A stretch of DNA of 64,000 nt. Origin: Paraburkholderia phytofirmans PsJN (lineage in GTDB: Bacteria; Pseudomonadota; Gammaproteobacteria; Burkholderiales; Burkholderiaceae). How positions within the stretch are numbered: the first letter of the stretch is position 1; each line of letters starts with the position of its first letter. Made by a program: the position numbers and the translations under genes. The DNA is taken from NCBI RefSeq assembly GCF_000020125.1, contig NC_010676.1:372001-436000 (forward strand), written 5' to 3'. The notes beneath the pieces were generated by a model. That model was not told the DNA's origin, ran no database searches, and was given only the letters and a program-made list of their open reading frames with translations. Positions 43,967 to 62,717 of the stretch are shown here, piece by piece.

Positions 43967-43997
43967 TAGAGCCAGTTGGCGGGAGTCGATGAGTCCA
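43967..43997. promoter_or_regulatory. 31-bp motif, candidate TauR operator, site 1
   Basis: TAGAGCCAG, six bases, GGAGTCG, one base, TGAGTCCA. Half-sites GAGCC and GAGTC are 22 bp apart, two helical turns. The same pattern occurs at 56116 and 59223. It lies between the divergent DUF3311 gene (62 bp) and the TauX-like gene (192 bp). Confidence 0.65.
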
Positions 43998-44188
43998 ATT
44001 CAGCAGATGCCGCAGACTCCGCGAGACCCGTGTCACGGCGCGCTGCACCAGGCGAAAGCACCTCACTGGACCTACCGGCTAAAAACCCCCCTGCCTACAA
44101 TTTCCTCACGAAATCGCCGGCCACCGGCGGCGTCTCATGCCTTATCGAAACGAACGCGAAAGCGATAGTCATCCAGGAGGAGAAAGCA

Positions 44189-44599
44189 ATGGCTCAAACA
44201 CAGACCCCGCTGCAGCACGTCACGGCCGAAACACTGGCCGCGTTTTCCGATGCATTCAATCGTCATGACGCAAACGCGTTGATGACCTTCATGACCGACG
44301 ATTGCGTGTTCGATGCAGCGGGCGGTCCGGAAGTCTTCGGCACGCGCTTCGTGGGCCGCGAGGCAACGCGCGCGGCGTTCGAAGCCGTCTTCAAGACCTT
44401 TCCCGACGCGCATTGGGGGCAAGGCCGTCATTACGTGAGCGGCGAGCGCGGCGTGTCCGAGTGGGTGTTCACGGGAACGCACGCGGAAGGCTGGCGCATC
44501 GAGGCGGAAGGTTGCGACCTGTTCGAATTCCGCGACGGCCTCATCGCGGTCAAGCGGGCCTTCCGCAAGGAACGTCCGAAGCAGAACCTCGCACGCTGA
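44189..44599 (+). CDS. tauX: SnoaL/NTF2-like protein, probable taurine dehydrogenase small subunit
   Basis: A 136-residue NTF2-fold protein (AFSDAFNRHDANALMTFMTDDCVFDAAGG, then HAEGWRIEAEGCDLFEFRDGLI). The ATG at 44189 has AGGAGG upstream. It is directly followed by an FAD oxidoreductase of about 51 kDa. A small protein of this kind next to such an enzyme matches the TauX/TauY taurine dehydrogenase pair as I recall it. A 31-bp motif shared with tauA and the aldehyde dehydrogenase supports this. By fold alone it could be any SnoaL-like protein. Confidence 0.6.
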   Translation: MAQTQTPLQHVTAETLAAFSDAFNRHDANALMTFMTDDCVFDAAGGPEVFGTRFVGREATRAAFEAVFKTFPDAHWGQGRHYVSGERGVSEWVFTGTHAEGWRIEAEGCDLFEFRDGLIAVKRAFRKERPKQNLAR

Positions 44600-44612
44600 T
44601 CGGGAGCTTCAC

Positions 44613-46028
44613 ATGGAGCACAGTGAAATCGAACGGGTCGCGCAAGGCATGCCGTCCGGCCGCGCAGACGATACGCGCTACGACCCGGCGTACGACCCGC
44701 TGGTGTCGCCCGGGCCGGGCTGGGGCAAGCAATACGCGCCGACCTACTGGGTTGCGACCGCGGGCACGCCGCCCGAAGACGATGGCCCGATCACCGCGGA
44801 TGTCGACGTGGATGTGGCGATCATTGGCGGCGGCTATACCGGGCTCGCCACGGCGCTCTGTCTCGCGCGGGAGCACGGCATCAAGGCTGTCGTGCTGGAA
44901 GCCAACAAGACGAGCTGGGGCTGCAGCAGCCGCAACGGCGGCCAAGGTCAGAACGCCTCGGGCCGGCTGTCGCGTTCGCAATGGATCGAGCGCTGGGGTA
45001 AAGACGTCGCGTTGAAAATGCACGACGAGATTCAGGAAGGTTTCGATAATTTCAAGTCGCTGGTCGCGGAGATCGATTGCGATCCGCAACCCGGTGGCCA
45101 CTTTCTGATCGCGCACCGGCCGCGCATCATGCAGAAGCTCGCCGCCGAGGCCAAAGTCTGGAAGGACGTGTTCGGCTATCCGTCCGAGCTGATCGACAAG
45201 CAGACCTTCCAGCGCGAATACGTCAACGATCACGAAGCAGCGGGCGCGCTGCACGAGCCCGAAGGCATCGGCATTCATGCGTTGAAGCTCGCCTTCGGTT
45301 ATCTGCGGCTGGCCCGCGAAGCGGGCGCCAAGGTGCATCCGGCGAGCCCGGTGCTCGGCTGGGAAACGATCAACGGTGTGCATCATTTGCGCACGCCTGG
45401 CGGCATCGTGCGGGCACGCGCGGTCGGCATTGCAACGGGCGCGTACACGGCGCAAACGCTGCACAACTCGCTGCGCAGCCGCATCATGCCGATCCTGTCG
45501 AATTCGATGGTCACGCGGCCGCTCACGAAGCAGGAAATCGACGCGTGCAACTTTCGCACGACCCAGGTGCTGACCGATACGCGCACGCTGCGCTTCTACT
45601 ATCGTTTTCTGCCGGACAACCGTTTGCAGATCGGCAGCCGTTCCGCGATCACCGGCGCCGACGCGCCCAATTCGCGCCATTACGATCTGCTGATGGAAGG
45701 CATGTTGCGCAAGTTTCCGGCCCTGCGCGGCGTCGCGATCGATTATTCATGGTGGGGCTGGGTGGACGTCAGCCACGACATGATGCCGCGCGTGTATCAG
45801 CCGGATCCGATGCAGACCGTGTACTACGCGCTCGGCTACGGCGGCAACGGCGTGTCGTATTCGCAGCAGGCCGGGCGGCGGCTGGCCGAACGCATCGCGG
45901 GAAAGGGCGCGAAACAGACGTTGCCGATCTTCACGTCGCCATTGCCCGGGCACCCGTTCGCGCCATTCCGGCGAATCGGCCAGCGGATGCTGTATCAACT
46001 GTATTTCCGGCGCGACGAAAAACCGTGA
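44613..46028 (+). CDS. tauY: FAD-dependent amine oxidoreductase, probable taurine dehydrogenase large subunit
   Basis: A 471-residue DAO-family flavoprotein resembling gamma-glutamylputrescine oxidase. The FAD motif is VAIIGGGYTGLATALCLARE at about residue 67, SSRNGGQGQNASG follows (flavin attachment/ring region of the family), and GYGGNGVSYSQQAGRRLAE closes the FAD site. In the taurine reading it would deaminate taurine to sulfoacetaldehyde with electrons to the respiratory chain. Evidence is the TauX-like partner 13 bp upstream, the shared operator, and Xsc, Pta and TauABC within 15 kb. A PuuB-type polyamine oxidase is the main alternative. Confidence 0.6.
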   Translation: MEHSEIERVAQGMPSGRADDTRYDPAYDPLVSPGPGWGKQYAPTYWVATAGTPPEDDGPITADVDVDVAIIGGGYTGLATALCLAREHGIKAVVLEANKTSWGCSSRNGGQGQNASGRLSRSQWIERWGKDVALKMHDEIQEGFDNFKSLVAEIDCDPQPGGHFLIAHRPRIMQKLAAEAKVWKDVFGYPSELIDKQTFQREYVNDHEAAGALHEPEGIGIHALKLAFGYLRLAREAGAKVHPASPVLGWETINGVHHLRTPGGIVRARAVGIATGAYTAQTLHNSLRSRIMPILSNSMVTRPLTKQEIDACNFRTTQVLTDTRTLRFYYRFLPDNRLQIGSRSAITGADAPNSRHYDLLMEGMLRKFPALRGVAIDYSWWGWVDVSHDMMPRVYQPDPMQTVYYALGYGGNGVSYSQQAGRRLAERIAGKGAKQTLPIFTSPLPGHPFAPFRRIGQRMLYQLYFRRDEKP

Positions 46029-46297
46029 TGCAGCGGGCGGAACATTGCCCGCGCGCCGTGCGGCGCTGAACTTGCAACCGGCAACTTGCCGTTCGCACTG
46101 CGCAAACGGCACACCAAACAGCGCTCCAACCGGTGCACACTTGCACCATGCGCGAGAGTCGCGCGGTGCTTCATAAAAAATCCTGGGCGGGACGCATGGG
46201 CGTCCTCGCCCCATCCAGTATTGACGACGATAGGACTCGGGCGGCCGCGAAAGCAGGACGGCCCGGTCCGCGATCGGATAACGGAATTGGAGGTGAC

Positions 46298-47728
46298 ATG
46301 CAGCGATCTACAGACACAACGGAATTGAAGGCGGGCCTCAAACAGCGCCACATGACGATGATCGCGCTCGGCGGCGTGATCGGCGCGGGGCTCTTCGTCG
46401 GCAGCGGCGTGGTCGTGCAGCAGGCTGGCCCCGCCGCGGTGCTGTCGTTTCTGATCACCGGCGCGCTGGTCGTGCTGGTCATGCGGATGCTCGGCGAAAT
46501 GGCCTGCGCGATGCCGGCCGTCGGTTCGTTCTACGAATACGCGCGGCTCGCGTTCGGCGGCAAGCGCGCGTCCGGCAACCTCGCCGGTTTTCTGACCGGC
46601 TGGATGTACTGGTATTTCTGGGTCATCGTCGTCGCGGTGGAGGCCGTGGCCGGGGCGAAACTCGTGCAGTTTTGGCTACCGGACGTTCCCGCGTGGGCGA
46701 TCAGTCTCGTGTTGCTGGTCACGCTCACGGCGACCAACCTGGTCTCGGTCGGCAGCTACGGTGAATTCGAGTTCTGGTTCGCGTCGATCAAGGTCGCGGC
46801 GATCATGGTGTTCCTGTTTCTCGGCGGCATGTATGTGCTGGGACTGTGGCCCGCGGCGAAGCACGTCACCGCCGTTCTGCCGACGCTGCTTTCGCACGGC
46901 GGCTTGATGCCGAAGGGAATCGGACCCGTGCTGAGCGGCGCGGTTGCGGCCACGGGCTTTTACTTCGGCGCGGAGATCGTCACGATCGCGGCGGCCGAAG
47001 CGCAGGAGCCCGCCAAAGCCGTCGCCAAAGCGACGAACTCGGTGATCACGCGCGTGCTGGTTTTTTATGTCGGCTCGATCCTGCTCGTCGTCGCGCTGGT
47101 GCCGTGGAATTCCCCGAAGATGGCGACGCCGTATGTGAGCGCGCTCGATGCCATGGGTATTCCCGCCGCCGCCAGCGTCATGAATGCCATCGTGCTGACC
47201 GCGGTGCTGTCTGCGCTCAATTCAGGCCTCTATGCCGCGTCGCGGATGATCTTCGCGCTGACACGCCACGGCGACGCGCCCGCCGCACTCGCCAAGGTCA
47301 ATCGTCGCGGCGTGCCGGTTCGGGCGATTCTGATCGGCACCGTGTTCGGCTATGCGTCGGTGGTGATGTCGTACGTGTCGCCGGATACGGTTTTCGCCTT
47401 CCTCGTGAATTCGTACGGCACGGTGGCGATTTTCGTCTACGTGCTGATCGCGATCTCGCAATTGAAACTGCGCGCTCGCATCGAACGGGATGCGCCGGAG
47501 AAGCTGCGCGTCCGGATGTGGTGCTACCCGTACCTCACGTGGGTCGCGATCATCGGCATGGTCGGCATTCTGGTGGCGATGGCGTTCATTCCCGAGCAAC
47601 GTCAACCGTTGTGGTTCGGAGTCGCGAGCCTAGGCGTGTTGCTGCTCGCTTATCTGCTGCGCGTCCGTAAACCCGATGCCGGGTTCGGCGAACCGGACAC
47701 GCTGGAATACCGGCATCACCATCACTAA
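46298..47728 (+). CDS. amino acid permease (GABA/APC type)
   Basis: A 476-residue APC superfamily transporter with about twelve membrane segments. The start LKQRHMTMIALGGVIGAGLFVGSGVVVQQAGPA is diagnostic of the AAT/GABA permease branch, and VGSFYEYARLAFG follows. The ATG at 46298 has GGAGGTGAC upstream. It lies 269 bp after the flavoprotein gene on the same strand; no operator-like site is seen between. It could carry GABA, taurine, beta-alanine or another omega-amino acid. It ends with a His-rich tail. Confidence 0.85.
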   Translation: MQRSTDTTELKAGLKQRHMTMIALGGVIGAGLFVGSGVVVQQAGPAAVLSFLITGALVVLVMRMLGEMACAMPAVGSFYEYARLAFGGKRASGNLAGFLTGWMYWYFWVIVVAVEAVAGAKLVQFWLPDVPAWAISLVLLVTLTATNLVSVGSYGEFEFWFASIKVAAIMVFLFLGGMYVLGLWPAAKHVTAVLPTLLSHGGLMPKGIGPVLSGAVAATGFYFGAEIVTIAAAEAQEPAKAVAKATNSVITRVLVFYVGSILLVVALVPWNSPKMATPYVSALDAMGIPAAASVMNAIVLTAVLSALNSGLYAASRMIFALTRHGDAPAALAKVNRRGVPVRAILIGTVFGYASVVMSYVSPDTVFAFLVNSYGTVAIFVYVLIAISQLKLRARIERDAPEKLRVRMWCYPYLTWVAIIGMVGILVAMAFIPEQRQPLWFGVASLGVLLLAYLLRVRKPDAGFGEPDTLEYRHHHH

Positions 47729-47868
47729 TGTCGGCGTCAGGCTGCGAATGCAAAAAAACGAGATGATTTGTATCGAAAAAAGAAAGTGCGTATGATGGCT
47801 CGACAAGGCCGCGCTGCCAGCCATGCTAGGCGCCGGCCTTCGTCGTGACGAAGCGCGAGGAGAGCGTA

Positions 47869-48858
47869 GTGACCGATATCGTGACAGGCAAGCCGGACCG
47901 GATGGTCTCGGTGCGCACGTTGTTTGGCATCGACTCAGGCTTGATGGTGCCGGCCTTCAGCGAACGGGACGACCACGTTCCCGAAATCGACGAGGTGTAT
48001 CGCTTCAATCCAGAAGTGACGCTGGCGATTCTCGCCGGCTTCATGCGCGAGCGCCGCGTGATGGTGCAGGGTCTGCACGGCACGGGCAAATCCACGCACA
48101 TCGAACAGGTCGCGGCCCGCCTGAACTGGCCGTGCGTGCGCGTGAATCTCGACGGGCATATCAGCCGTCTCGATCTGGTGGGCAAAGACGCGATCATCGT
48201 GCGCGACGACGTGCAGATCACCGAATTCCAGGAAGGTATCGTGCCGTGGGCGCTGCAACGTCCCATGGCGTTGATCTTCGACGAATACGACGCGGGCCGT
48301 CCCGACGTGATGTTCGTGATCCAGCGCATTCTCGAGCGCGACGGCAAATTCACGCTGCTCGATCAGAACCGCGTGATTCATCCGCATCCGTATTTCCGGC
48401 TGTTCGCTACGACCAACACGGTCGGCCTGGGCAATCTGAACGGTCTTTACCACGGCACGCAGTTGTTGAATCACGCGCAGCTGGACCGTTGGAACGTGGT
48501 CGCCACGCTCAACTATCTGCCGCGTGCCGAGGAAGCCGGCATCGTGCTGGCGCGCGTGCCCGAACTCGCCGACGAGGCCGGCCGCGCGCTGATCGAGTCG
48601 ATGATCAGTGTGGCGGAACTGACGCGCAAAGGCTTCGCCACTGGCGATCTGTCCACGCTGATGTCGCCGCGCACCGTGATCGACTGGGCGGAAAATTGCC
48701 AGATCTTCCGCGACCCGGCGATGGCGTTTCGCCTGACCTTCGTCAACAAATGCGACGAAGCAGAGCGGCCCATCGTGGCCGAGTATTTTCAGCGCTGCTT
48801 CGATAGGGAACTGGAAAGCGCGGCGGAGCGCGAGATGCGCTCGACGGTGCCGCAATGA
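47869..48858 (+). CDS. CobS-like AAA+ ATPase
   Basis: A 329-residue AAA+ protein of the cobaltochelatase CobS/MoxR type. Walker A is VQGLHGTGKST, Walker B is MALIFDEYDAG, sensor 1 is LFATTNTVG, and GLYHGTQLLNHAQLDRW follows. The GTG at 47869 has AGGAG upstream and is preferred to the GTG at 47845. CobS with CobT and CobN inserts cobalt into hydrogenobyrinate; no CobN is in this window. The next gene, a CobT-like VWA protein, overlaps its stop (ATGATG), so the two form a complex. Its target here may be another metal or protein. Confidence 0.8.
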   Translation: MTDIVTGKPDRMVSVRTLFGIDSGLMVPAFSERDDHVPEIDEVYRFNPEVTLAILAGFMRERRVMVQGLHGTGKSTHIEQVAARLNWPCVRVNLDGHISRLDLVGKDAIIVRDDVQITEFQEGIVPWALQRPMALIFDEYDAGRPDVMFVIQRILERDGKFTLLDQNRVIHPHPYFRLFATTNTVGLGNLNGLYHGTQLLNHAQLDRWNVVATLNYLPRAEEAGIVLARVPELADEAGRALIESMISVAELTRKGFATGDLSTLMSPRTVIDWAENCQIFRDPAMAFRLTFVNKCDEAERPIVAEYFQRCFDRELESAAEREMRSTVPQ

Positions 48859-50591
48859 TGCCTGCCGAGCGGCAAGCGGCACGCCGCGCCGAACAGCGTC
48901 AGAACCTGTGCGCGGCGGCGGTGCGCGCATTGACCGGGGACGCGGAGTTGCATTACCGCGCCGGCCGCTTATTCCGTGGTCTGCGTCCGGTGCATCTGCA
49001 TGCGCCGCATCTGCGCATGGACGCGCAACCAGACGATCTGCGTTCCCTGCGCGGCGCCGCGGACGGCGCAGCATTACGCCTCACGCATTCCGACGCGAAG
49101 CTCCACGCGAGTCTGTGTCCAGCCGAACCGGCGGAGCCGGTGGAGCGACTGCTGTTCGAGCTGTTCGAGCAGTTACGTTGCGAAGCGCTTGTGCCGGCCA
49201 GCATGCCGGGACTCGCGCAGAATCTGCGCCATCGTTTCGAAACGTGGTCGCGCGCTTTCTATCGGACCGGGTGGACCGACGGCCACCTCGGCATTCTGCT
49301 TTACACCGTGGCGCAGATCGTCTGGTCGCGTCTGTCGGGCTGGCCCGTGCTGGAAGAAACAGAAGGTCTGATCGAAGCCACGCGCGCCGCGATCACACCG
49401 ACCTTGGGCGTACCGCTCGCGGCGCTGCGGCGGCATCGAACGGAGCAGGGCGAGTTTGCAATTCATGCGCTCGAATTGGCGCGTCTCGTCAGCCAGATGA
49501 TGCGTGACGCCCGCGCGCAGTCCGTCGAAGGAGAAGACGAGCAGGCACCGGAAGACGACGAAGCCGTGCGGTCCATGTTCGCGCTCTGGTTCGATACCGA
49601 CGAAGGCGAGCAGGTCGACATGGGCCTCGCCGCCACCGGCGACAGCCGCGTGCTCAGAGACGCGGAGCATCGCTACCTGGCGTACACCACGCGCTACGAT
49701 CGCGAGTTCATGCCGGGCTCGCGCATTCGCAGCGAGTTGCTGACCGAATACCGCGACCAGCTCGACAAGCGCATTGCCGCGCAGCGCATCAACGTGCCGC
49801 GACTCGCGTATGCGCTCAAGGCGGCGCTCGCGGTGCCGCAACGCGACGGCTGGTCGTTCGGCGAAGAGCACGGCCGCATCGACGGCCGGCGTCTCGCGCA
49901 GCTGGTCAGCTCGCCGGCCGAGCGGCGTTTGTTTCTGCTCGAACGGTACAAGCCGCTCGCCGATTGCGTGGTGAGCTTTCTCATCGATTGTTCGGGTTCG
50001 ATGCGCACGTATATCGAGCCGGTGGCGCTGCTGGTGGACGTGCTCACTCGCGCGCTCGATCAGGCGGGTGTCGCCAGCGAGGTGCTGGGTTTCTCGACCG
50101 GCGCCTGGAATGGCGGCCGCGCGCGGCAAGATTGGCTGGCCGGCGGGCGGCCGTCTCATCCTGGGCGGCTCAACGAGGTCGCTCACCTCGTCTTCAAGGA
50201 TGCGGCGACGAGTTGGCGGCGTGCTCGCGCCGACATCGCCGCATTGTTCAAGGCCGATCTGTTTCGCGAAGGCGTGGACGGCGAAGCGGTCGACTGGGCC
50301 TGCACGCGGCTGCGAACGCGTGCCGAGGCGCGGCGGATTCTCGTCGTGATCTCGGACGGCAGCCCGATGGACAGCGCCACCGCTCAGGTCAACGACACCT
50401 ACTATCTCGACAACCACCTGAAGCAAGTCGTCGAACGCAACGAAGCCGCGCGCGATGTCGAGTTGCTGGGCCTGGGCGTCGGACTCGATCTCAGTCCTTA
50501 TTACCGCCGTTGCCTTGCGGTCGATCTGTCCACGCCGCCCGACATGCCGTTGTTTACGGAACTCGTTGGCTGGATCGGCGCGCGGCGCTAG
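48855..50591 (+). CDS. CobT-like VWA-domain protein
   Basis: A 578-residue protein like cobaltochelatase subunit CobT. The N-terminal part (1-200) is a mostly helical CobT domain. The acidic linker near residue 215-235 (SVEGEDEQAPEDDEAV) is typical. The VWA domain at about 370-570 has the MIDAS motif FLIDCSGSMRTY and VISDGSPMDSA. It overlaps the CobS-like gene and presumably binds it as an ATPase-driven metal-insertion or remodelling module. There is no obvious link to sulfonate breakdown. CobN may be encoded elsewhere. Confidence 0.8.
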   Translation: MMPAERQAARRAEQRQNLCAAAVRALTGDAELHYRAGRLFRGLRPVHLHAPHLRMDAQPDDLRSLRGAADGAALRLTHSDAKLHASLCPAEPAEPVERLLFELFEQLRCEALVPASMPGLAQNLRHRFETWSRAFYRTGWTDGHLGILLYTVAQIVWSRLSGWPVLEETEGLIEATRAAITPTLGVPLAALRRHRTEQGEFAIHALELARLVSQMMRDARAQSVEGEDEQAPEDDEAVRSMFALWFDTDEGEQVDMGLAATGDSRVLRDAEHRYLAYTTRYDREFMPGSRIRSELLTEYRDQLDKRIAAQRINVPRLAYALKAALAVPQRDGWSFGEEHGRIDGRRLAQLVSSPAERRLFLLERYKPLADCVVSFLIDCSGSMRTYIEPVALLVDVLTRALDQAGVASEVLGFSTGAWNGGRARQDWLAGGRPSHPGRLNEVAHLVFKDAATSWRRARADIAALFKADLFREGVDGEAVDWACTRLRTRAEARRILVVISDGSPMDSATAQVNDTYYLDNHLKQVVERNEAARDVELLGLGVGLDLSPYYRRCLAVDLSTPPDMPLFTELVGWIGARR

Positions 50592-50612
50592 GGCGCTTGG
50601 GTCCGCGGCCGC

Positions 50613-51374
50613 CTAGCGGAGCAGCTGCTGCAACGCATGCAGGATCAGCGAACCGCCGATCACCACCAGAATCGCGTACGCGATGCGGCGCGTCATCACA
50701 CTCGACAGCGGCGGCGGATACTGCCGCGCTACAAGCGTCATCAGCGCGACGACCGGGACTGCGAACGCGGCTTGCATCCAGAGATCGGCGTCGAGTTGGC
50801 CCAGGTACGCGCTGAACATCGTGCGAATGGTCGACGTCACCGTAAAGATCACAATCAACGCGTAGCGGATCTGCACGAGCGAGAGCGGCTGGCGATAGAA
50901 CTGAAAAATCAACGGCGGCCCGGATACGCCGAACATCCCGCTCAGCAGACCGCCAAAGAGGCCGCTAACAAAAAAACTTCGGTTGCCTGAGCGGCAAGCG
51001 AGCGGTGTGGGCCGCAGCGCCGCGCTCAAGCCCCCATACAGCACCACGGCGCCCAGCAGTAGCTGCAACATGCTTGACGCTGCATTGCTCAACAGATCCA
51101 GCACCAGCACGCCCGCTACTACCGACGGCAGAATGCCCAACGTAGCGGCGCCCACCGCCCGCCAGTCGATGTGATGCAGTTTGCCGGGCAAGGCAGTCGC
51201 GCTGTTGGCGAGCGTCACGAGGCTCAGCAACGCGGCGAGACTCGTCACCGGCGCGAGGTCCAGGCCGCTGGCGGCGCCGATCACGATCATGCTCAGGCCG
51301 AAGCCGGTGATGGTTTGAAAATAGCTCGCGACGCCCATCAGCGCGAGCAGAGGCAGCAACTTTTGAACGATCAT
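50613..51374 (-). CDS. TauE/SafE family sulfite exporter
   Basis: A 253-residue inner-membrane protein with about eight hydrophobic segments. The family signatures are GVASYFQTITGFGLSMIVIG near the N terminus and SGLFGGLLSGMFGVSGPPLIFQFY in the middle. The family includes exporters of sulfite and sulfoacetate in taurine users. The ATG at 51374 overlaps the Pta stop by ATGA, so it is coupled to xsc-pta and would expel the sulfite that Xsc releases. Confidence 0.85.
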   Translation of the reverse strand: MIVQKLLPLLALMGVASYFQTITGFGLSMIVIGAASGLDLAPVTSLAALLSLVTLANSATALPGKLHHIDWRAVGAATLGILPSVVAGVLVLDLLSNAASSMLQLLLGAVVLYGGLSAALRPTPLACRSGNRSFFVSGLFGGLLSGMFGVSGPPLIFQFYRQPLSLVQIRYALIVIFTVTSTIRTMFSAYLGQLDADLWMQAAFAVPVVALMTLVARQYPPPLSSVMTRRIAYAILVVIGGSLILHALQQLLR

Positions 51375-52405
51375 GTATGAGACGGCGTGAGGGCGTCGGG
51401 ATGCGTGAGCGCGGCTTGTGCCTGGACCGCGGTGACGGCGGTGACGTAGTAGATGTCGTCCGCGCTGCAACCGCGCGAGAGGTCGTTGGCGGGCTTGCGC
51501 AGGCCTTGCAGCAAAGGGCCGATCGCCTTCGCGCCGCCGATCCGCTCGGCCAGCTTGTAGCCGATATTGCCCGCCTCGAGACTCGGAAACACCAGCACGT
51601 TGGCGTGGCCTTCCACCTGCGAATGCTTGACCTTGCGCAGCGCGATTTCGGAGACGATAGCCGCGTCGAGTTGCACGTCGCCGTCGATCGCGAGATGCGG
51701 GCGGCGTTCCTGCACGATGTGGGTTGCGTTGACCACTTTGTCGACTGCCGCATGATGCGCGCTGCCGCTCGTCGAAAACGACAGCATGGCCACGCGCGGC
51801 TCATCCATCAGCAGGCTTCTTGCGCTGTCCGCCGCGGCCATCGCGATCTCCGCGAGTTGGGCGGCATCGGGTTCCACTACGAGCGCGCAGTCGGAAAAGA
51901 TCAGGCCGCCCTTGAGCGTGTGGAACGGCTCGCACAGCATCATCAGAAAGAAACTCGAGACGAGCTTGAACGACGGCGCAATGCCGATGATCTGGATCGC
52001 AGTGCGCACCACGTCGGCGGTGGTATTGACCGCGCCGGACACGGAACCGTCGGCATGGCCGAGACGCACCATCAGGTTCGCGAAGCACAGCGGGTTGAGG
52101 ATTTCTTTCCGCGCCTGTTCGAGCGTCATGCCTTTCTTGCTGCGCAATGCGAACAGTTCGTCGGCATATGACGATGCGAGCGCCGAAGTAGCAGGGTCCA
52201 CCAATTCCATACCGGATAGATCGACGTCGAAGCCGGCGGCAGCCTCGCGGATACGCGTGGCGTCGCCCACCAGCAGAATGCGCGCAATGCCTTCTCGGGT
52301 CGCGCGTTGCGCCGCCTGCAACACGCGCGGATCCTCGGCCTCGCTCAGCACGATGCGCATCGGCGAACGGCGCGCTTGTTCAATGATGCGGTTGATGGCT
52401 TTCAT
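51371..52405 (-). CDS. pta: phosphate acetyltransferase
   Basis: A 344-residue phosphotransacetylase of the short type, lacking the N-terminal regulatory domain of E. coli Pta. Blocks seen are IVLSEAEDPRVLQAAQRA, LMVRLGHADGSVSGAVNTTADVVR, MMLCEPFHTLKGGLIFSDCALV, FSTSGSA, VLVFPSLEAGNIGYKLAERIGGA and GLRKPANDLSRGC. It converts the acetyl phosphate made by Xsc to acetyl-CoA. The ATG at 52405 is chosen; the frame upstream to 52633 is not family sequence. Placement between xsc and the exporter gene is standard for taurine users. Confidence 0.9.
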   Translation of the reverse strand: MKAINRIIEQARRSPMRIVLSEAEDPRVLQAAQRATREGIARILLVGDATRIREAAAGFDVDLSGMELVDPATSALASSYADELFALRSKKGMTLEQARKEILNPLCFANLMVRLGHADGSVSGAVNTTADVVRTAIQIIGIAPSFKLVSSFFLMMLCEPFHTLKGGLIFSDCALVVEPDAAQLAEIAMAAADSARSLLMDEPRVAMLSFSTSGSAHHAAVDKVVNATHIVQERRPHLAIDGDVQLDAAIVSEIALRKVKHSQVEGHANVLVFPSLEAGNIGYKLAERIGGAKAIGPLLQGLRKPANDLSRGCSADDIYYVTAVTAVQAQAALTHPDALTPSHT

Positions 52406-52450
52406 AAGCGTGGCCGAGTGGAGAAATAGCGAGAACCTTGAACGAAGAAG

Positions 52451-52491
52451 CCGGAGACAGCGCGCGTGAAAAGAATGCGCGCTGTTTCCGG
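52451..52491. other. long hairpin between xsc and pta
   Basis: CCGGAGACAGCGCGC and GCGCGCTGTTTCCGG pair over 14 of 15 positions with an 11-nt loop. It lies in the xsc-pta gap with a second strong hairpin next to it. No U run follows, so it is more likely an mRNA-stabilising or attenuating structure than a simple terminator. Confidence 0.55.
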
Positions 52492-52503
52492 CCAGTGAGC
52501 GCG

Positions 52504-52535
52504 GCGGCCTCGGTCCGTTTGAACACCGAGGCCGC
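52504..52535. other. second hairpin between xsc and pta
   Basis: GCGGCCTCGGT and ACCGAGGCCGC form a perfect 11-bp stem with a 10-nt loop, 19 bp after the xsc stop. No U run follows on the minus strand. Together with the hairpin at 52451 it may separate expression of xsc from pta. Confidence 0.55.
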
Positions 52536-52553
52536 GCGCGCCGCATAACACGC

Positions 52554-54386
52554 TCAGACGTAGTCCTTGTACTTGTCGAGCATGCGCACCGGCTTGGAGA
52601 GCGCGTCGCGGCGGAACGGATCGCCCAGTTCACGCGTGCACATGATTTCGATGATGGTGGTCTTGCCGTGATTCATCTGCGCGTCGATCGCGCGCTTGAG
52701 CGCCGGGCCCACGTCTTCGAGACGATCCACCACGATGCCTTCGGCGCCCATCGCGCGGGCAATCGCCGCAAAGCTCTGGTTGTCGAGTTCACCGGCGACG
52801 AAGCGGCGGTTGTAGAAGTCCACCTGGTTCTTCTTCTCCGCGCCCCACTGGCGATTGTGGAACACCACGGCCGTCACCGGGATGTTGTGGCGCACGCAAG
52901 TCATGGTTTCCATCAGGCTCATGCCCCATGCGCCATCGCCCGCATACGACACGGCCGGACGATGCGGCGCGGCAACCTTGGCGCCGATGATGGTCGGAAA
53001 CGCGTAACCGCAATTGCCCCAGCTCATCGCCGCGAAAAAGCTGCGCGGCTTGTTGAAGCGCAGATAGCTGTTGGCCACCGAGTTGATGTTGCCGATGTCG
53101 GTCGAGACCATGACGTCTTCAGGCATGGCCTTTTCCAGTTCGCGCAGCACCTGGCGCGGATGCAGGTAGGTGCCGCCGCCAGGCGTGCGCTCCTGCTTCT
53201 GCTCCTCGATCATGTCGAGACTGTAGGCGTCGCGCTCGTGCGTCCAGTCGTCGAGTTCCTTCTCCCAGGCGGCTTTCTCGGATGCGATCTGAGCGCCGCG
53301 TTCCTCGCGCGTGGCGTCGCTTGCGAGTTTGCGTCCCGCAAGGCGTTCGGTCAGCGCGACGGCGGCAGCTTTCGCGTCGCCGCAGATACCCACCGAAATC
53401 TTCTTCACGAGGCCAAGCATCTTGTGATCGGCATCGATCTGGATGATCTTCGCGTTGGTCGGCCAGTAGTCCATGCCGTGCTGCGGCAGCGTGCCGAACG
53501 GTCCGAGGCGCGAGCCGAGCGCAATGACGACGTCGGCGCGCGACAGTAGCTTCATGGCCGCTTTCGAGCCTTGATAGCCGAGCGGGCCGCACCACAGCGG
53601 ATGGTTGGCGGGGAAAGAATCGTTGTGCAGATAGCTGTTGACGACCGGTGCGTTCAAACGTTCGGCGAGCGCCTTGCATTCTTCGATCGCATCGGCCATC
53701 ACCACGCCGCCGCCGGAAATGATCACCGGGAATTTGGCTTGCGCGAGCAGCTCTGCCGCTTCGTTCAGGCTTTGCTCACCGCCCGCGCCGCGATCGAGAC
53801 GCTGCGGCTGAGGAATTTCCACCTTGACCTGACCATAGAAATAGTCGCGCGGAATGTTGAGCTGGGTCGGTCCCATTTCCGCCATCGCGCGGTCGAAGCA
53901 GCGGCCCGTGAATTCGGCCATGCGGGCCGGATGGGTGACGTGGCCTTGATACTTGGTGAACTCCTGGAACATGGGCAGCTGCTTGGCTTCCTGGAAGCCG
54001 CCCAGACCGATGCCCATGGTGCCGGCCTCCGGCGTGACGATCACGACCGGGCTGTGGGCCCAATAGGCCGCGGCAATGGCGGTGACGCAGTTGCTGATGC
54101 CCGGGCCGTTCTGGCCGATCACCACGCCGTGACGCCCCGAGACACGCGAATAGCCGTCGGCCATGTGACCGGCGCCTTGCTCGTGCACGACCGGAATCAG
54201 GCGGATGCCGGCGGGCGCGAAGATGTCCATGGCGTCCATGAAGGCGGAGCCCATGATGCCGAACATATCGGTCACGCCGTTGGCCGCCAGGGTTTCGACA
54301 AACGCTTCCGACGGCGTCATGGCCTGCGGGCCACTGGCACGGTTGTCGGCGGTCGCGTCGCGCGGGGAAGGATTCTGCTCGCTCAT
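52554..54386 (-). CDS. xsc: sulfoacetaldehyde acetyltransferase
   Basis: A 610-residue thiamine diphosphate enzyme that cleaves sulfoacetaldehyde with phosphate to acetyl phosphate and sulfite. The Xsc-specific start is TPSEAFVETLAANGVTDMFGIMGSAFMDAMDIF, with the catalytic Glu in VVHEQGAGHMADGYSR. The ThDP motif lies in YAGDGAWGMSLMETMTCVRHNIPVTAVVFHN (GDG...N). The ATG at 54386 has GGAGAC upstream and gives a 22-residue extension before the core. It is followed by pta and the TauE-like gene. Its upstream gap carries a motif shared with the IclR/GMC promoter. Confidence 0.93.
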   Translation of the reverse strand: MSEQNPSPRDATADNRASGPQAMTPSEAFVETLAANGVTDMFGIMGSAFMDAMDIFAPAGIRLIPVVHEQGAGHMADGYSRVSGRHGVVIGQNGPGISNCVTAIAAAYWAHSPVVIVTPEAGTMGIGLGGFQEAKQLPMFQEFTKYQGHVTHPARMAEFTGRCFDRAMAEMGPTQLNIPRDYFYGQVKVEIPQPQRLDRGAGGEQSLNEAAELLAQAKFPVIISGGGVVMADAIEECKALAERLNAPVVNSYLHNDSFPANHPLWCGPLGYQGSKAAMKLLSRADVVIALGSRLGPFGTLPQHGMDYWPTNAKIIQIDADHKMLGLVKKISVGICGDAKAAAVALTERLAGRKLASDATREERGAQIASEKAAWEKELDDWTHERDAYSLDMIEEQKQERTPGGGTYLHPRQVLRELEKAMPEDVMVSTDIGNINSVANSYLRFNKPRSFFAAMSWGNCGYAFPTIIGAKVAAPHRPAVSYAGDGAWGMSLMETMTCVRHNIPVTAVVFHNRQWGAEKKNQVDFYNRRFVAGELDNQSFAAIARAMGAEGIVVDRLEDVGPALKRAIDAQMNHGKTTIIEIMCTRELGDPFRRDALSKPVRMLDKYKDYV

Positions 54387-54410
54387 GGGGTGTCTCCAGC
54401 TCTTTGAGAT

Positions 54411-54425
54411 AAGTGGAACAAAAAA
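54411..54425. promoter_or_regulatory. motif upstream of xsc shared with the IclR/GMC intergenic region
   Basis: AAGTGGAACAAAAAA here and AAGTGAAACAAAAAA at 62718 differ at one position in 15. It lies 25 bp before the xsc start. It could be an IclR-type half-site. A further candidate (GGAACGTTTTGTATC) is at 54496-54510. Confidence 0.35.
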
Positions 54426-54573
54426 TACCGAAAAATGCTTGGTGTCTGAAATGTAGGTCAGTGGTTTGCGTCAGTCAACCAAAATTCAAATAAATGGAAC
54501 GTTTTGTATCAAAAATTTTTCGTTTCGCGAGGATGCGGTTTGCGTTCTGGCAGTGGCGACCGCTGCCGCAGCC

Positions 54574-56031
54574 TTACTGCCACGGCAACGAGTACGTCTT
54601 GACGTTGGTAAAGCTCTTGATCGCTTCCTGAACGCCTTCCTTGTAGCCGAGCCCCGAGTCCTTGATGCCGCCGAACGGCGTCAGTTCGAGCCGATAGCCC
54701 GGCACCTCGCGCACGTTCACGCTGCCCACTTCCAGTTCCGCGATAAACCGCGTGATGTAGTCGAGCCGGTTCGTGCAGACGGACGAGGACAGGCCGTAAT
54801 CGGTGGAGTTAGAGAGTCGGATCGCTTCGTCGATATCGCGGAAACGAATGACCGGCGAAACCGGCCCGAAGGTTTCATAGCGAACGAGCGGCATATCGGC
54901 CGTGACGTGATCGACCACGGTCGGCGAATAGAGAGCGCCGCGGCGCACGTTGCCGAGCAGCAGCTTCGCGCCGCGGCTCACGGCGTCGTTGACTTGCGCT
55001 TCGAAGAACTTCGCGGAGTCTTCGTCGATCACAGTGCCCATGTCGGTGGCGGGATCGGCCGGGTCGTCGTAGCGTATTGCGCGGGTCTTCTCCACCAGCA
55101 GTTCGACAAAGCGGTCCGCCACCGCCTCATGCACGAGCATCCGCTTGATGGCGGTGCAGCGCTGCCCCGAGTTCTTGTACGAGCCGGAAACGGCCAGCGT
55201 GCTCGCTTCGTCGAGGTCCGCGTCTTCCATCACGATGATCGGATCGTTGCCGCCCAGTTCTAGAACCGCGCGCCGGTAACCCATCTTGTTCGCGATGTAT
55301 TTGCCGATAGCGACGCCGCCCGTGAACGTAATCAGGTCGACGCGCGGGTTCGTGATGAGTTCGTCGGCGATATCTTTCGGGTCGCCTGTCACCACCTGTA
55401 GCATCTGTTGCGGCAGGCCGGCGCTGTAGAGGATCTCGGCGAGCAGACAGGTGGACAGCGGCACCTTCTCCGACGGCTTGACGACGATCCGGTTATTGGT
55501 GGCGATGGATGGCACGATCTTATGCGCCACCTGGTTCATCGGATGATTGAACGGCGTGATCGCGCAGATCACGCCGAGCAGCGGCTCGCGCTGCGTGTAG
55601 ACGCGGCGCTGTTTGCCGTGTGGTGTCAGATCGCACGAGAAGATCTGGCCGTCATCCTTTAGCGCCTCGTTGGCGCCGAAGACCAATACGTCGCTGACGC
55701 GGCCCGCTTCGTATAACGAATCCTTTTTGCAGAGCCCCGATTCCGCGGTGATCAGGTCGGCGATTTCGTTTGTCCGTTCGCGCACGATATCCGCCGCGCG
55801 CCGCAGGATCTGCGCGCGCTCATAGCGTGTGAGTTTGGCGCGATACGCGTGAGCGTACTCGAAGGCATGGCGCACGTCGTCCACGGTGGCGTTCGGGACG
55901 GTGCCGACCAGTTCGCGCGTATAGGGGTTGAATACCTCGATGACCTCAGCGCGCGTCACCCTTTCCCCGCCGATGCGCATGGCCTCGTGGCGAACGGCAG
56001 AAGGCATCCGTGGTTTGAAAATGGCGTTCAC
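54574..56031 (-). CDS. phosphonoacetaldehyde/sulfoacetaldehyde dehydrogenase
   Basis: A 485-residue NAD(P)-dependent aldehyde dehydrogenase closely resembling PhnY phosphonoacetaldehyde dehydrogenase. Catalytic Cys is in KNSGQRCTAIKRM, Glu in AVLELGGNDP, Asn in ITPFNHPMNQVAHK, and the C-terminal PGYRLELTPFGGIKDSGLG is as in PhnY. Phosphonoacetaldehyde and sulfoacetaldehyde are near-isosteric. Located between tauC and xsc, with a candidate TauR operator 85 bp upstream, it likely oxidises sulfoacetaldehyde to sulfoacetate. No phosphonate genes are adjacent. Start is a GTG at 56031. Confidence 0.75.
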   Translation of the reverse strand: MNAIFKPRMPSAVRHEAMRIGGERVTRAEVIEVFNPYTRELVGTVPNATVDDVRHAFEYAHAYRAKLTRYERAQILRRAADIVRERTNEIADLITAESGLCKKDSLYEAGRVSDVLVFGANEALKDDGQIFSCDLTPHGKQRRVYTQREPLLGVICAITPFNHPMNQVAHKIVPSIATNNRIVVKPSEKVPLSTCLLAEILYSAGLPQQMLQVVTGDPKDIADELITNPRVDLITFTGGVAIGKYIANKMGYRRAVLELGGNDPIIVMEDADLDEASTLAVSGSYKNSGQRCTAIKRMLVHEAVADRFVELLVEKTRAIRYDDPADPATDMGTVIDEDSAKFFEAQVNDAVSRGAKLLLGNVRRGALYSPTVVDHVTADMPLVRYETFGPVSPVIRFRDIDEAIRLSNSTDYGLSSSVCTNRLDYITRFIAELEVGSVNVREVPGYRLELTPFGGIKDSGLGYKEGVQEAIKSFTNVKTYSLPWQ

Positions 56032-56115
56032 GCGGCCCCCTGGCTGGATTGACGATGGTGGAAAGTAAATGTCTTACCGTTGAGGTCGATAGTGCCGTTG
56101 GGCACGCCAACGGGG

Positions 56116-56146
56116 TAGAGCCAGCTTGGAGGAGTCGCTGAGTCCA
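56116..56146. promoter_or_regulatory. 31-bp motif, candidate TauR operator, site 2
   Basis: TAGAGCCAG, six bases, GGAGTCG, one base, TGAGTCCA: identical to site 1 (43967) in all 24 defined positions. It lies 85-115 bp upstream of the aldehyde dehydrogenase start, and would control that gene and possibly xsc-pta. Confidence 0.65.
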
Positions 56147-56169
56147 GCGCCGTGTCGCTGCAGCGCATG

Positions 56170-56201
56170 CGAAAAGAGAAAGGGCCCAATGAAGGGCCCT
56201 T
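56170..56201 (-). terminator. Rho-independent terminator after tauC
   Basis: AAGGGCCC and GGGCCCTT pair perfectly over 8 bp with a 6-nt loop (56180-56201). A U-rich tract follows on the minus strand. It lies 26 bp after the tauC stop and ends the tauABC operon before the dehydrogenase promoter. Confidence 0.75.
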
Positions 56202-56226
56202 GTCAGCGGAATACGGTGAAGCCTTC

Positions 56227-57147
56227 TCAAACCTTCCCTTTCCACGGCACCAGCACGCGCTCGATATAACGCATCAGCAAATCGAAGCACAGCGCAAAGA
56301 AGCCGATCACGATGATCCCCATGATCACCACGTCGCTCGCCAGAAATTCCGCCGCGTTGAGCACCATGAAACCGAGGCCGCTGTTCGAGGCGACCATTTC
56401 AGCGGCCACCAGCGTCGTCCAGCCCACGCCGATGCCGATTCGCATGCCGGTAAAGATCTCCGGCATCGCCGACTTCAGGATCACGTACAGCACCACTTGC
56501 GTGCGCGAGGCGCCCATCGAGTAGGCGGCGTGAATCTGTTCGATCGACACCGAGCGCACGCCTGCGCGCGCCGCAATCGCGAGCGGCGCGAAGATCGCGA
56601 GATAGATCAGCAGCACCTTCGAAAATTCGCCGATGCCGAACCAGATGATGATGAGCGGCAAATAGGCGAGCGGCGGCAACGGCCGGTAGAACTCGATCGG
56701 CGGATCGAACGCACCGCGCGCGAAGCGCGACACGCCCATCATCACGCCGACGGGTATCGCCGTCACACAGGCGAGCGCGAACGCGCCGAACACGCGCAGC
56801 AAGCTGATGCCGGTGTGCTGCGCGAGCGTCGAATTGGCGAAACCTTCCGTGGCGACATAGATGAACTTCGCGTAGACGGCCTGCGGCGATGGCAGGAACA
56901 ACGGCTTGATCCAGTGCAGATTGGTCGCCGCGAACCAGAGCGCGATGAACGCGGCGACCGTGATCAGGCTCGTGGCGACGCTGCTGCCTTGCCCGGGCAC
57001 GCCGAACGTGTCGCCGGGCCTGGCGGGCTTCTTCGCGAGCATACGAGGTCCGCGGCCCGGTCTGCGGGGCGGCTCGATCGGCGAGTTCGTCTCCATTTGC
57101 GCGGCCTCGCCGTGCAACACGGCATGAGCGGATTTAGAACTAAACAT
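56227..57147 (-). CDS. tauC: taurine-type ABC transporter permease
   Basis: A 306-residue inner-membrane permease of the nitrate/sulfonate/taurine class. It has a 60-residue cytoplasmic N-terminal stretch, then about six hydrophobic segments. The EAA loop reads [38 protein letters not shown] and the C-terminal part has [17 protein letters not shown]. The ATG at 57147 has GGAG upstream and overlaps the tauB stop by a few bases. Works with TauA and TauB for taurine import. Confidence 0.88.
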
Positions 57148-57955
57148 GAGCGACTCCGGCCTCGGCGGCATGCATTTTCTCGTCGCCGTAGATGATGTTG
57201 AGAACCTGCTCGCGCATTGCGATGAAATCGGGACTCGATTTGATCGCCCGTGCGTCGCGCGATTCGAGAAAACGGCGGTTGAAGTCCAGTTCGTAGGTAT
57301 GCGTGATACGGCCGGGACGCGGCGACATCACGATGAGCCGGCTCGCAAGGAACAGTGCTTCCTCCACACTGTGCGTGATGAAGAAGAACATCTTGTTGGT
57401 CTTCTTCCACACGTCGAGCAGAAGCTCCTGAATGGTCTCGCGAGTGAGCGCGTCGAGCGCGGCCATCGGCTCGTCCATCAGCAGCATCGCCGGATCGCAG
57501 GTGAGCGCGCGGGCAATCCCGACGCGCTGCTGCATGCCGCCGGAGAGCTGGTAGATCATGTGCTTGTGGAAGTCCTGCAAGCCCACCAGCGCAAGATTGC
57601 GCACGGCAATTTCGCGCCGTTGCGCGCGTGGCACGCCTTGCAGCTTGAGGCCGAATTCCGCGTTGTCGATCACGTTGAGCCATGGCAACAGCGCATGCTT
57701 CTGGAACACCACGCCGCGGTCCGCCCCCGGCCCCGCAATAGGTTCGCCGCCGAGCAGCAACTCGCCGCGGCTCGGCGCGATGAAACCGGCCATCAGCGAT
57801 AACAGCGTGGTCTTGCCGCAGCCCGACGCACCCAGCGCGACCACGAAGTCACCCGAGCGGATGGTCAGGTTGATATCGTCGAGCGCCTGCACGGTCTGGC
57901 CGGGGCGCCGCCCCGGAAATACCACGCTCACGTTCCTGACAGTCATGTTTTCCAT
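57140..57955 (-). CDS. tauB: taurine-type ABC transporter ATP-binding protein
   Basis: A 271-residue ATPase. Walker A is [19 protein letters not shown], signature [19 protein letters not shown], Walker B is [13 protein letters not shown], and the switch His is in [15 protein letters not shown]. All are typical of the TauB/SsuB class. The ATG at 57955 has GGGAGG upstream. Lies between tauA and tauC in one operon. It drives uptake at the inner face of the membrane. Confidence 0.9.
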
Positions 57956-57988
57956 GTTGCCTCCCTATCCCCAAGAATCACGGTTACG

Positions 57989-59047
57989 TCATTTGAGCTG
58001 CGCGGCGGCTTCAGCATAGGCCGGCGTCACGAATTTGGAGTAGTCCGGCAACACGGTGCCGATCTGCTTCTGGCTCTTCAGGAACTCCGAGGTGTCCTTC
58101 AGCGCGAGCGCGGCGCGGCTCGTCGTACCGCCGCCCAGCCATTGCGCGGATGCCTGTTCGCTAAGCGTGGGGAACGCATAGAGCGCCAGCGAGGCCGGCA
58201 CGTCAGCCGGCGAGCCGCCGATCATCTTCGCGATGGCGGCGGCTTGCGGCGAGCTCGCGTTCCATTGCGAAGGATTGCTGCGGTATTGCTGGTCGGCGTC
58301 GGCGATCGCCTTGACGAGTTTGGCCATGAAGTCCTTGTGTTCCTCGCCCCATTTGCGATCGACCGCAATGCCGTCGAAGGTCGGCTTGCCGAGTTTCGAA
58401 AGGTCGCCGGAGGTGATCAACACCTTGCCGCTTTTCTTCAGTTCGGCGAGTGCGGGGTCCCACACATAGGCGGCGTCGATATCGCCGCGCGACCAGGCCG
58501 CGACGATCTGATTGGGCTGCATGTTGAGAATCTTCAGGTCGGACGGATTGATGCCCCAGTGCTGCAGCGCGAACATGGTGTGATAGTGGGTCGTCGAAAC
58601 GAACGGCACGCCGATGGTCTTGCCCTTCAGGTCCGCGGGCTTGGTGATGCCGGAACCGTTGCGCACCACCATCGCTTCGGCCTGGTTGATGTTGTCGAGG
58701 ATCCAGAAGAGTTGCAGATCGAGGCCCTGACTCACGGCCGCCGCGAGCGGGCTGGAACCGATCACGCCGACCTTGACGTCGCCGGATGCGAGCGCGGTCG
58801 CCACTTTTGCCCCGGATTCGAATTGCCGCCAGTTGATCTTGTAACCCGTGGCCTTTTCGATCGACCCGTTCGCGATGCCGACCACCCAGGGGTCGACGAT
58901 CTGCTGGTAGGCGATCGTGATTTCCTTGTCTTCAGCGTGGGCGGGCGTCGTGGCGAAACACGCCGTGGCGGCGCAAACCAGCGACAGGACGCAGCGCGCC
59001 GTCCATTGGAACCACGGCCGCAATGTCGAGTTTTTATGGCGTTTCAT
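57989..59047 (-). CDS. tauA: taurine ABC transporter substrate-binding protein
   Basis: A 352-residue periplasmic protein with a Sec signal peptide (basic start KRHKN, hydrophobic core, cleavage near AHA). The mature start EDKEITIAYQQIVDPWVVGIANG and GVPFVSTTHYHTMFALQHWGI are characteristic of TauA. The ATG at 59047 is used; a GTG at 59059 is in frame. First gene of tauABC. The 3' neighbour of the 321-bp gap shared with tauR, in which a candidate TauR operator lies 176 bp upstream. Confidence 0.9.
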   Translation of the reverse strand: MKRHKNSTLRPWFQWTARCVLSLVCAATACFATTPAHAEDKEITIAYQQIVDPWVVGIANGSIEKATGYKINWRQFESGAKVATALASGDVKVGVIGSSPLAAAVSQGLDLQLFWILDNINQAEAMVVRNGSGITKPADLKGKTIGVPFVSTTHYHTMFALQHWGINPSDLKILNMQPNQIVAAWSRGDIDAAYVWDPALAELKKSGKVLITSGDLSKLGKPTFDGIAVDRKWGEEHKDFMAKLVKAIADADQQYRSNPSQWNASSPQAAAIAKMIGGSPADVPASLALYAFPTLSEQASAQWLGGGTTSRAALALKDTSEFLKSQKQIGTVLPDYSKFVTPAYAEAAAQLK

Positions 59048-59222
59048 AATAGGTCTCACAATAGGTGTGAAGGTGTGAACAGCGGTTTGATCAGCGGTTT
59101 AAACAACGGGTTTCAACAGCGGCTGCCGGTGGAGCATGGAACTCGTATGACCACGAGGGGTGCTTGTCCCAATCGCCTCGGACGGGGTGAGTCGAGTATC
59201 GTCATTAAAAAATAGAGCAAGT

Positions 59223-59253
59223 TAGTGCCAGACGGCGCCGATCGTTGAGTCCA
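59223..59253. promoter_or_regulatory. 31-bp motif, candidate TauR operator, site 3
   Basis: TAGTGCCAG, six bases, CCGATCG, one base, TGAGTCCA: matches sites 1 and 2 at 20 of 24 defined positions with the same spacing. An extra half-site TAGAGCAAG is at 59213. It lies in the 321-bp tauA-tauR gap; I see nothing else I can support in that gap. Confidence 0.6.
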
Positions 59254-61798: not shown

Positions 61799-61808
61799 GG
61801 GAAAGGCC

Positions 61809-62645: not shown

Positions 62646-62717
62646 ACGCTTCCTGGCTGTCGATCGGTGGCTGTCCGACGTCCGCGTACGCCGCGCGGGC
62701 CGGCCGGTCATTTCTAA

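Follow-up and report, generated by a model that had tools for sequence, protein, structure and literature searches.

Four direct-repeat sites in the taurine cluster of Paraburkholderia phytofirmans PsJN are predicted TauR operators, one of them before a possible N-acetyltaurine operon

The closest described counterparts of the system analysed here are the regulons of TauR, a regulator of taurine genes. TauR of Rhodobacter capsulatus is described as having direct repeats of CTGGACYTAA as its sites and as activating taurine genes (Wiethaus 2008, as cited in PMC5320631). According to the main text of a comparative study (Suvorova and Rodionov, 2016; PMC5320631), betaproteobacterial TauR regulons resemble those of alphaproteobacteria (tauABC, tauXY, xsc, pta, tauE), those of Burkholderia add GabP and a putative aldehyde dehydrogenase, and those of Comamonadaceae include COG523 and COG1574 proteins with an OppABCDF transporter; the aldehyde dehydrogenase, of a kind related to GabD, and Opp are explained there by a link to gamma-aminobutyrate (GABA). 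Here we describe a stretch of 64,000 nucleotides (the window) from Paraburkholderia phytofirmans PsJN (NC_010676.1, 372,001-436,000; genome of 8,214,658 bases), in which four copies of a 31-bp motif stand within a taurine cluster that encodes a probable MocR-type TauR. The best explanation overall, which we consider very likely, is that the motif is the operator of the TauR encoded at 59369. The box sequence and its arrangement as direct repeats are shared with R. capsulatus, whose TauR reportedly controls tpa-type taurine genes; the window has tauXY. The window regulon is very probably a TauR regulon of the kind already predicted for Burkholderia in 2016 (PMC5320631), aldehyde dehydrogenase included, and shares with those regulons a probable MocR-type TauR, a conserved direct-repeat motif and a common gene set. 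New here are the fourth site, the polarity of the sites, the promoter geometry, and a reading of one operon as naaS-naaT (N-acetyltaurine amidohydrolase and putative metallochaperone) together with a DUF3311/SLC5 symporter.

A first-pass annotation of the window had noted three copies of the pattern TAGAGCCAG-N6-GGAGTCG-N-TGAGTCCA, all in promoter gaps, and all three are genuine and lie in intergenic positions upstream of genes. At 43967-43997 and 56116-56146 (+ strand) the pattern occurs, as had been claimed, with 0/24 mismatches, and when up to three mismatches were allowed these remained its only matches in the window (0 in 100 shuffled sequences) and in the whole genome. The copy at 59223 keeps the same spacing, with 19 of the 24 bases matching (five mismatches) where 20 had been counted. 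The number of copies has to be raised to four: a further one, absent from the annotation, lies at 44044-44074 on the opposite strand to the first, has one mismatch to the core defined below and was matched at E = 0.013 by R1, a model trained on 37 sites that include the other three window sites and exclude this one. A weight matrix was also trained on 34 sites of named relatives, with all four window sites left out. On this matrix the three reported sites score 35.1, 34.4 and 33.4 bits and the fourth 26.1 bits, the next-best place in the window reaches 7.5 bits, and in 8.2 Mb of simulated sequence two places reach 16 bits and none 18. Chance is excluded because these held-out scores lie far above both the window and the simulated background.

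Read towards the controlled gene, 57 distinct sites, those of the window included, align to the consensus cTGGnC[TC][CA]A[GA]CGA-N10-CTGGnnCTA, in which 11 of the 31 columns are invariant. Its two outer boxes, cTGGnC[TC][CA]A and CTGGnnCTA, are in direct orientation, with the conserved CGA in between, and resemble the published TauR repeat CTGGAC(Y)TAA as direct repeats. That the half-sites are direct repeats had been recognised before; the distance of 22 bp given for them does not stand. When the matrix was compared with itself, column similarity peaked at a shift of 23 (7.55, versus 2.27 at a shift of 22), placing the conserved TGG...A cores 23 bp apart and ruling out the earlier figure, which arose because GAG had been aligned. 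The middle CGA element and the 23-bp spacing are measurements of the present analysis.

We next consider how closely the motif keeps to taurine genes. Genome-wide, the core TGnnCnnAnCGA-N10-CTGGnnCTA is matched exactly at three places, the sites at 43967, 56116 and 59223; allowing one mismatch adds the tauX site and three further places on contig C3, and a reversed control pattern gave five. With R1, the only matches at E < 0.05 were four sites within the taurine cluster, and the next match had E = 1.45 (three of the four sites being in its training set); both the core pattern and R1 were built after the sites had been seen. Across 97 genomes of the genus, R1 gave 94 matches at E <= 0.01 (under the stricter filters of Infernal, which drop weak matches, and with matches listed to E of about 0.39). 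In 87 cases the match lay at most 35 kb from a TauR gene on the same contig, six were on other contigs of draft genomes that also bear TauR, and one was in a genome we call G055. With TauR presence defined at E <= 1e-150, a strong site was computed in 34/34 TauR genomes and in 1/63 genomes without TauR (Fisher p = 2e-25, phylogeny ignored). The sites are confined to the taurine cluster in the own genome, many copies in unrelated or intragenic places, which would have spoken against the proposal that the motif marks a taurine regulon tied to TauR, were not seen, and this proposal is supported by the confinement and by the co-occurrence with TauR, with four sites in place of three.

The sites also keep their places between species. 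Many relatives have a site at the positions that correspond to the tauA/tauR and aldehyde dehydrogenase sites of the window, and orthologous promoters of Paraburkholderia, Caballeronia, Trinickia and Burkholderia keep the core. Two copies identical over 24 defined bases could also be expected of duplicated DNA, and so of a mobile or chance repeat with no regulatory role. However, the two otherwise identical copies at 43967 and 56116 have different N6 and N1 spacers, the third and fourth copies have diverged around the same core, and the orthologous promoters retain it. We regard such a repeat as practically negligible, ruled out by the confinement of R1 matches, the co-occurrence with TauR, the held-out matrix and the gene-by-gene placement described below.

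Placement was scored as a site of at least 16 bits within 350 bp upstream of a gene start, in two sets of loci. Set A (L003-L082) comprises the best 80 of 147 loci found in named relatives with the TauR protein, all in Burkholderiaceae; set B (L124-L163) comprises regions of 24 genomes of the genus (23 with TauR plus G055) out of the 35 with strong sites. The sets share some species, so the two tables depend on each other and on the training sites. In set B a site was present upstream of DUF3311 in 16/16 cases, tauX in 22/22, the aldehyde dehydrogenase gene in 5/5 and tauA in 10/10, and upstream of tauY in 12/23, xsc in 2/21 and the sodium:solute symporter gene (SSF) in 1/15. No site was found there before the amidohydrolase (0/14), CobW (0/5), gabP (0/16), cobS (0/20), cobT (0/20), tauE (0/13), pta (0/21), tauB (0/10), tauC (0/10) or IclR (0/7) genes. 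Set A gave 4/4 for DUF3311, 36/36 for tauX, 31/33 for tauA, 12/21 for tauY, 1/4 for SSF and 3/58 for xsc, with the aldehyde dehydrogenase considered further on and every other gene queried at zero. The tauY or xsc genes with a site are usually the first gene of a transcription unit, and the SSF matches are the DUF3311 site seen across the short DUF3311 gene. Of all 212 sites of at least 16 bits, 174 were at most 450 bp from a recognised gene start; among the other 38, 33 were next to tauR, in gaps whose neighbouring gene was either absent from the queries or lacked a recognised start. The computed sites therefore stand before the first genes of transcription units, with one polarity, and precede genes of taurine uptake and degradation: tauABC, tauXY, and the aldehyde dehydrogenase gene just upstream of xsc-pta-tauE.

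Polarity bears directly on the 283-bp gap between DUF3311 and tauX, in which the first-pass annotation had placed the 43967 site. This gap contains two back-to-back sites, each directed at its own gene, and the same pair is present in three related genomes (G022, G025, G065). Site 1 (43967..43997, - strand), which reads TGGACTCATCGACTCCCGCCAACTGGCTCTA towards DUF3311, is the predicted operator of the DUF3311-SSF-amidohydrolase-CobW operon, and site 4 (44044..44074, + strand), which reads TGCACCAGGCGAAAGCACCTCACTGGACCTA, is the predicted operator of tauX, 114 bp from its start; in relatives the site upstream of tauX lies at 89-130 bp, with one case at about 310 bp. Because tauX has its own site at 44044-44074, the 43967 site is assigned to the DUF3311 operon, which it most likely serves instead of tauX. 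In a shared gap, and given that activators sometimes act both ways, one could suppose that the 43967 site controls tauX and that DUF3311 is under some other control or none. This is very unlikely, since every testable DUF3311 (16/16) and tauX (22/22) in set B has a site directed at it, and in four loci (L019, L021-L023) in which the DUF3311 operon lies beside tauC, about 5 kb from tauX, a site still stands before DUF3311 while tauX, behind tauR, has its own. Service of tauX by the 43967 site was accordingly rejected on polarity and on the separate 44044 site, which is directed at tauX. The two remaining window sites are site 2 (56116..56146, - strand), the predicted operator of the aldehyde dehydrogenase gene, from which transcription may read through into xsc-pta-tauE, and site 3 (59223..59253, - strand), the predicted operator of tauABC in the divergent tauA/tauR gap.

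The sites have a regular relation to promoter elements, with a -10-like element at an almost constant distance. After thinning to 75 promoters, -10-like sequences were enriched in columns 53-60, which lie 22-29 bases past the proximal box. The window has TACAAT before tauX (44096..44101, + strand, 22-27 bases past site 4), TACTCG before tauA and AACACT before DUF3311. With the usual 17-base spacer, a -35 hexamer would fall at or just beyond the end of CTGGnnCTA, a layout that fits an activator touching polymerase. A protein bound at sites that overlap or abut the -35 region could also block polymerase, and TauR might then be mainly a repressor here, relieved by taurine. We consider this unlikely: an operator at or just upstream of the -35 region combined with poor -35 hexamers fits an activator, and the known TauR proteins activate taurine genes (Wiethaus 2008, as cited in PMC5320631).

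The candidate regulator is encoded by tauR (59369..60895, + strand). Its product has the GntR winged helix-turn-helix (Pfam, residues 25-87) and fold-type-I aminotransferase domain (Aminotran_1_2, residues 206-492) that define MocR proteins, and aligns with GabR structures from residue 25 to residue 501 of its 508. We favour TauR over PdxR as its identity because the protein is encoded among taurine genes and because the motif and the published repeat CTGGACYTAA point that way. It is very improbable that the motif is instead the operator of another regulator travelling with the cluster, such as the IclR-family proteins encoded beside tauR (60938-61819 and 61809-62834) or a LysR protein. IclR genes flank many such clusters, and the IclR-family matches are clear, but the site is a direct repeat with 23-bp spacing that matches the published TauR repeat and follows TauR, the regulator for which co-occurrence was counted, in 34/34 genomes. 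A better candidate for an IclR-type operator is another sequence, the palindrome CGGAAC-N5-GTTCCG, which lies close to where xsc and cobS start.

This palindrome was followed through sets A and B. Close to the xsc start it was present in 39/79 loci with at most one mismatch and 53/79 with at most two, and about 27-41 bp upstream of cobS in 7/53 and 20/53, respectively (one of the 20 being a fragment match far from the start). Elsewhere, with at most two mismatches, it was found at IclR (6/44), tauA (3/43), tauR (3/103), cobT (2/48), SSF (1/19), tauY (1/45), pta (1/79) and tauB (1/43), with none at the rest. In the window it is degenerate, near 54414-54430, the best match before xsc having three mismatches and that before cobS five. 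The palindrome is a candidate operator of the flanking IclR proteins, which would couple xsc to cobST.

Several observations weigh against the assignment of the motif to TauR or against parts of the regulon. The 59369 protein scores 353.8 bits with the NCBIfam PdxR model, above its cut-off of 320, and no TauR model was among the 25 listed of 75 NCBIfam families. Autoregulation of tauR is without support beyond the shared divergent gap because its start has no site in its own direction (0/23 in set B, 0/80 in set A). In set A, 14 of 23 aldehyde dehydrogenase genes had a site at most 350 bp away, and tauA falls short of a full count (31/33). The aldehyde dehydrogenase promoter of the window has a weak -10 match only (CACTATC), and xsc is preceded by promoter-like sequence of its own (TTGACT-N17-TACATT), so site 2 may not alone govern xsc. 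G055 has a strong site and no TauR, its best MocR protein being 36% identical. Finally, 15 of 80 TauR loci (14 Caballeronia, one Burkholderia turbans; TauR 68-70% identical) had no site inside the stretch fetched, in which tauX, tauY and DUF3311 were likewise not found. Caballeronia sp. NK8, which is similar in layout, has a site of 31.1 bits at the DUF3311 promoter, and this promoter lies outside those stretches, so the site-less loci are only partly explained.

Two details were recorded in these genomes. The G055 site (L163, 9261-9291) lies beside a 3-hydroxyisobutyrate-dehydrogenase-like gene, in a fetched stretch of 12.4 kb that contains no recognised taurine gene. The presumed recognition helix of TauR reads VSRNTVV in six of the 15 proteins from site-less loci (those aligned) and VARNTVV in 12 others aligned.

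From the sites and their surroundings we infer TauR as the binder, activation as its mode, taurine as the signal, the extents of the operons and the substrate of the fourth. In the proposed mechanism, a TauR dimer would lie across both outer boxes, and the proximal box CTGGnnCTA, which abuts or overlaps the -35 region, is followed after about 22-25 bp by a -10-like element. Charged with pyridoxal 5'-phosphate and taurine, TauR would retain RNA polymerase at four promoters that are weak by themselves. The first would drive tauABC for uptake, the second the aldehyde dehydrogenase gene and possibly, by read-through, xsc-pta-tauE, and the third tauXY-gabP-cobST. The fourth would drive DUF3311-SSF-NaaS-NaaT, importing N-acetyltaurine and hydrolysing it into more taurine.

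The fourth operon encodes, on the - strand, a small DUF3311 membrane protein (43696..43905; PF11755, 66.5 bits; GTG start set by comparison with L023), a sodium:solute symporter (SLC5/SSF; 42298..43683; PF00474, 66 bits), an amidohydrolase proposed to be NaaS (40606..42264; Amidohydro_3, 242.9 bits; no NCBIfam model passes for it) and a CobW-type GTPase proposed to be the NaaT metallochaperone (39677..40606; cobW, 153.3 bits). In Ruegeria pomeroyi (SPO0657-0664), adjacent naaS and naaT genes, for an N-acetyltaurine amidohydrolase and a putative metallochaperone, are reported beside the LysR gene naaR and a five-gene ATP-binding cassette (ABC) transporter, and Cupriavidus necator H16 is cited for naaS-naaT (PMC4334477; Denger 2011 as cited there). 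The window operon shares with R. pomeroyi the adjacent amidohydrolase and putative metallochaperone genes, here in a taurine context, and differs in its transporter, DUF3311 plus an SLC5 symporter in place of an ABC system, and in having a TauR-type site. The C. necator genes bear the names naaR-O-P-S-T, and if naaO and naaP encode a DUF3311 protein and a symporter, that transporter has already been proposed. The amidohydrolase-CobW pair may be NaaS-NaaT with the DUF3311/SLC5 symporter as importer, an assignment resting on synteny (L177, L178, L199) and regulon membership.

DUF3311 and SLC5 genes are also neighbours in Sinorhizobium fredii NGR234, where a DUF3311 gene beside the SLC5 gene mctP is reported to be lowered together with it in the same regulator mutant (PMC9100948). 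That symporter is described as a pyruvate symporter under RpuS/R (PMC9100948), whereas the window symporter scores 167 bits with the MctP equivalog model against a cut-off of 625.

Related arrangements place the module in several other contexts. Paracoccus sp. TOH (L199) has the R. pomeroyi-like layout, with a LysR gene, a five-gene ABC transporter and an amidohydrolase 51% identical to that of the window, and no TauR-type site (best 8.9 bits). A DUF3311-SSF-amidohydrolase-CobW operon divergent from a LysR gene (G229) has no TauR-type site either. In G333 and G234, genomes from a different family of the same order, the amidohydrolase is 60% identical to that of the window and the genes run xsc, pta, site, ABC transporter genes, amidohydrolase, CobW, second site, tauXY, tauR, tauCBA; the first site scores 20.2 and 16.2 bits by matrix and was not found by R1 at E <= 1, and the second scores 33.1 and 31.4 bits (R1 E = 0.005 and 0.024). 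The ABC genes of L177 comprise a family-5 binding protein and permease (Pfam) and ATPases recognised by similarity to TauB. The genes of G333 and G234 resemble the COG1574/COG523/OppABCDF set reported for Comamonadaceae in PMC5320631. Across an order-wide sample, the amidohydrolase was found at E <= 1e-120 in 11 of 250 genomes, the own genome included; in G333 and G234 the best R1 match lay about 1.1 kb off, before tauX, and the remaining eight had no R1 match beside the amidohydrolase. A Burkholderia multivorans plasmid (L201) has a 37.9-bit site before its DUF3311-SSF-amidohydrolase-CobW operon.

On the same plasmid, a TauD/TfdA gene and an ABC transporter follow on the same strand, and L201 is possibly a sulfur-scavenging version of the module. 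Two further genomes have an additional 25.4-bit site about 1 kb upstream of the DUF3311 site (L125 at 9807, L153 at 4257); in L125 it points, 45 bp off, at a TauE/SafE-family exporter gene (8958-9761; Pfam TauE, 88 bits), which is a probable extra regulon member.

We give slightly better than an even chance to a wider reading in which TauR of Burkholderiaceae took over an N-acetyltaurine module whose neighbours elsewhere are LysR regulators and, in some cases, an ABC transporter, the COG1574/COG523/OppABCDF members of earlier regulons are N-acetyltaurine genes, and the palindromic operator couples xsc to cobST. If it is true, TauR turns on genes that import and hydrolyse a taurine conjugate and so supply the regulator with its inducer. 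For the COG1574/COG523/OppABCDF members, an N-acetyltaurine role fits better than the GABA link, the Opp set having the gene composition of the N-acetyltaurine transporter; acetyltaurine, amidohydrolase, DUF3311 and symporter are not mentioned in the main text of PMC5320631. The analysis yields a sharp predicted TauR operator and promoter geometry for Burkholderiaceae, corrects the assignment of sites to genes, and proposes a function, N-acetyltaurine import and cleavage, for genes unassigned or otherwise explained in earlier regulon work; the known workings of MocR regulators are unchanged by it.

The other taurine genes of the window were assigned by profile matches and context. On the - strand, tauA (57989..59047) encodes the taurine-binding protein (TIGR01729, 408.7 bits; cut-off 304), tauB (57140..57955) the ABC ATPase (best model PRK11248 taurine ATPase, 338.9 bits, below its cut-off of 357) and tauC (56227..57171) the permease (best model PRK10160 TauC, 309 bits, below its cut-off of 342). 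These are followed, all on one strand, by the genes for the aldehyde dehydrogenase (54574..56031), sulfoacetaldehyde acetyltransferase (xsc, 52554..54386; TIGR03457, 1084.8 bits), phosphate acetyltransferase (pta, 51371..52411; profile matches) and a TauE-like sulfite exporter (50613..51401; Pfam TauE, 61 bits, no NCBIfam model matched). The aldehyde dehydrogenase belongs to the phosphonoacetaldehyde dehydrogenase family (TIGR03250, 887.1 bits; cut-off 635.65), a point of difference from the GabD-related reading of the earlier regulons, and scores 378 with the SafD model, below its cut-off of 700. Phosphonoacetaldehyde is the phosphorus analogue of sulfoacetaldehyde, and the enzyme probably acts on the latter. 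In three loci (L012, L033, L148) the site lies before xsc, and the aldehyde dehydrogenase was not found there by homology search.

On the + strand, tauX (44189..44599; Pfam SnoaL_2) and tauY (44613..46028; Pfam DAO) encode the SnoaL-like subunit and the flavin adenine dinucleotide (FAD) oxidoreductase of a presumed taurine dehydrogenase, both named by context. They are followed by a GabP-like amino acid permease gene (46274..47728, start approximate; GABAperm, 543 bits, below its cut-off of 678) and, downstream of tauXY-gabP, a cobS-cobT-like AAA+/VWA pair (47845..50591). This pair recurs beside taurine genes in many relatives; its CobS falls just below and its CobT far below the respective NCBIfam cut-offs. 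CobN is encoded about 720 kb from the pair, and a second CobS-like protein (39%) is encoded elsewhere in the genome.

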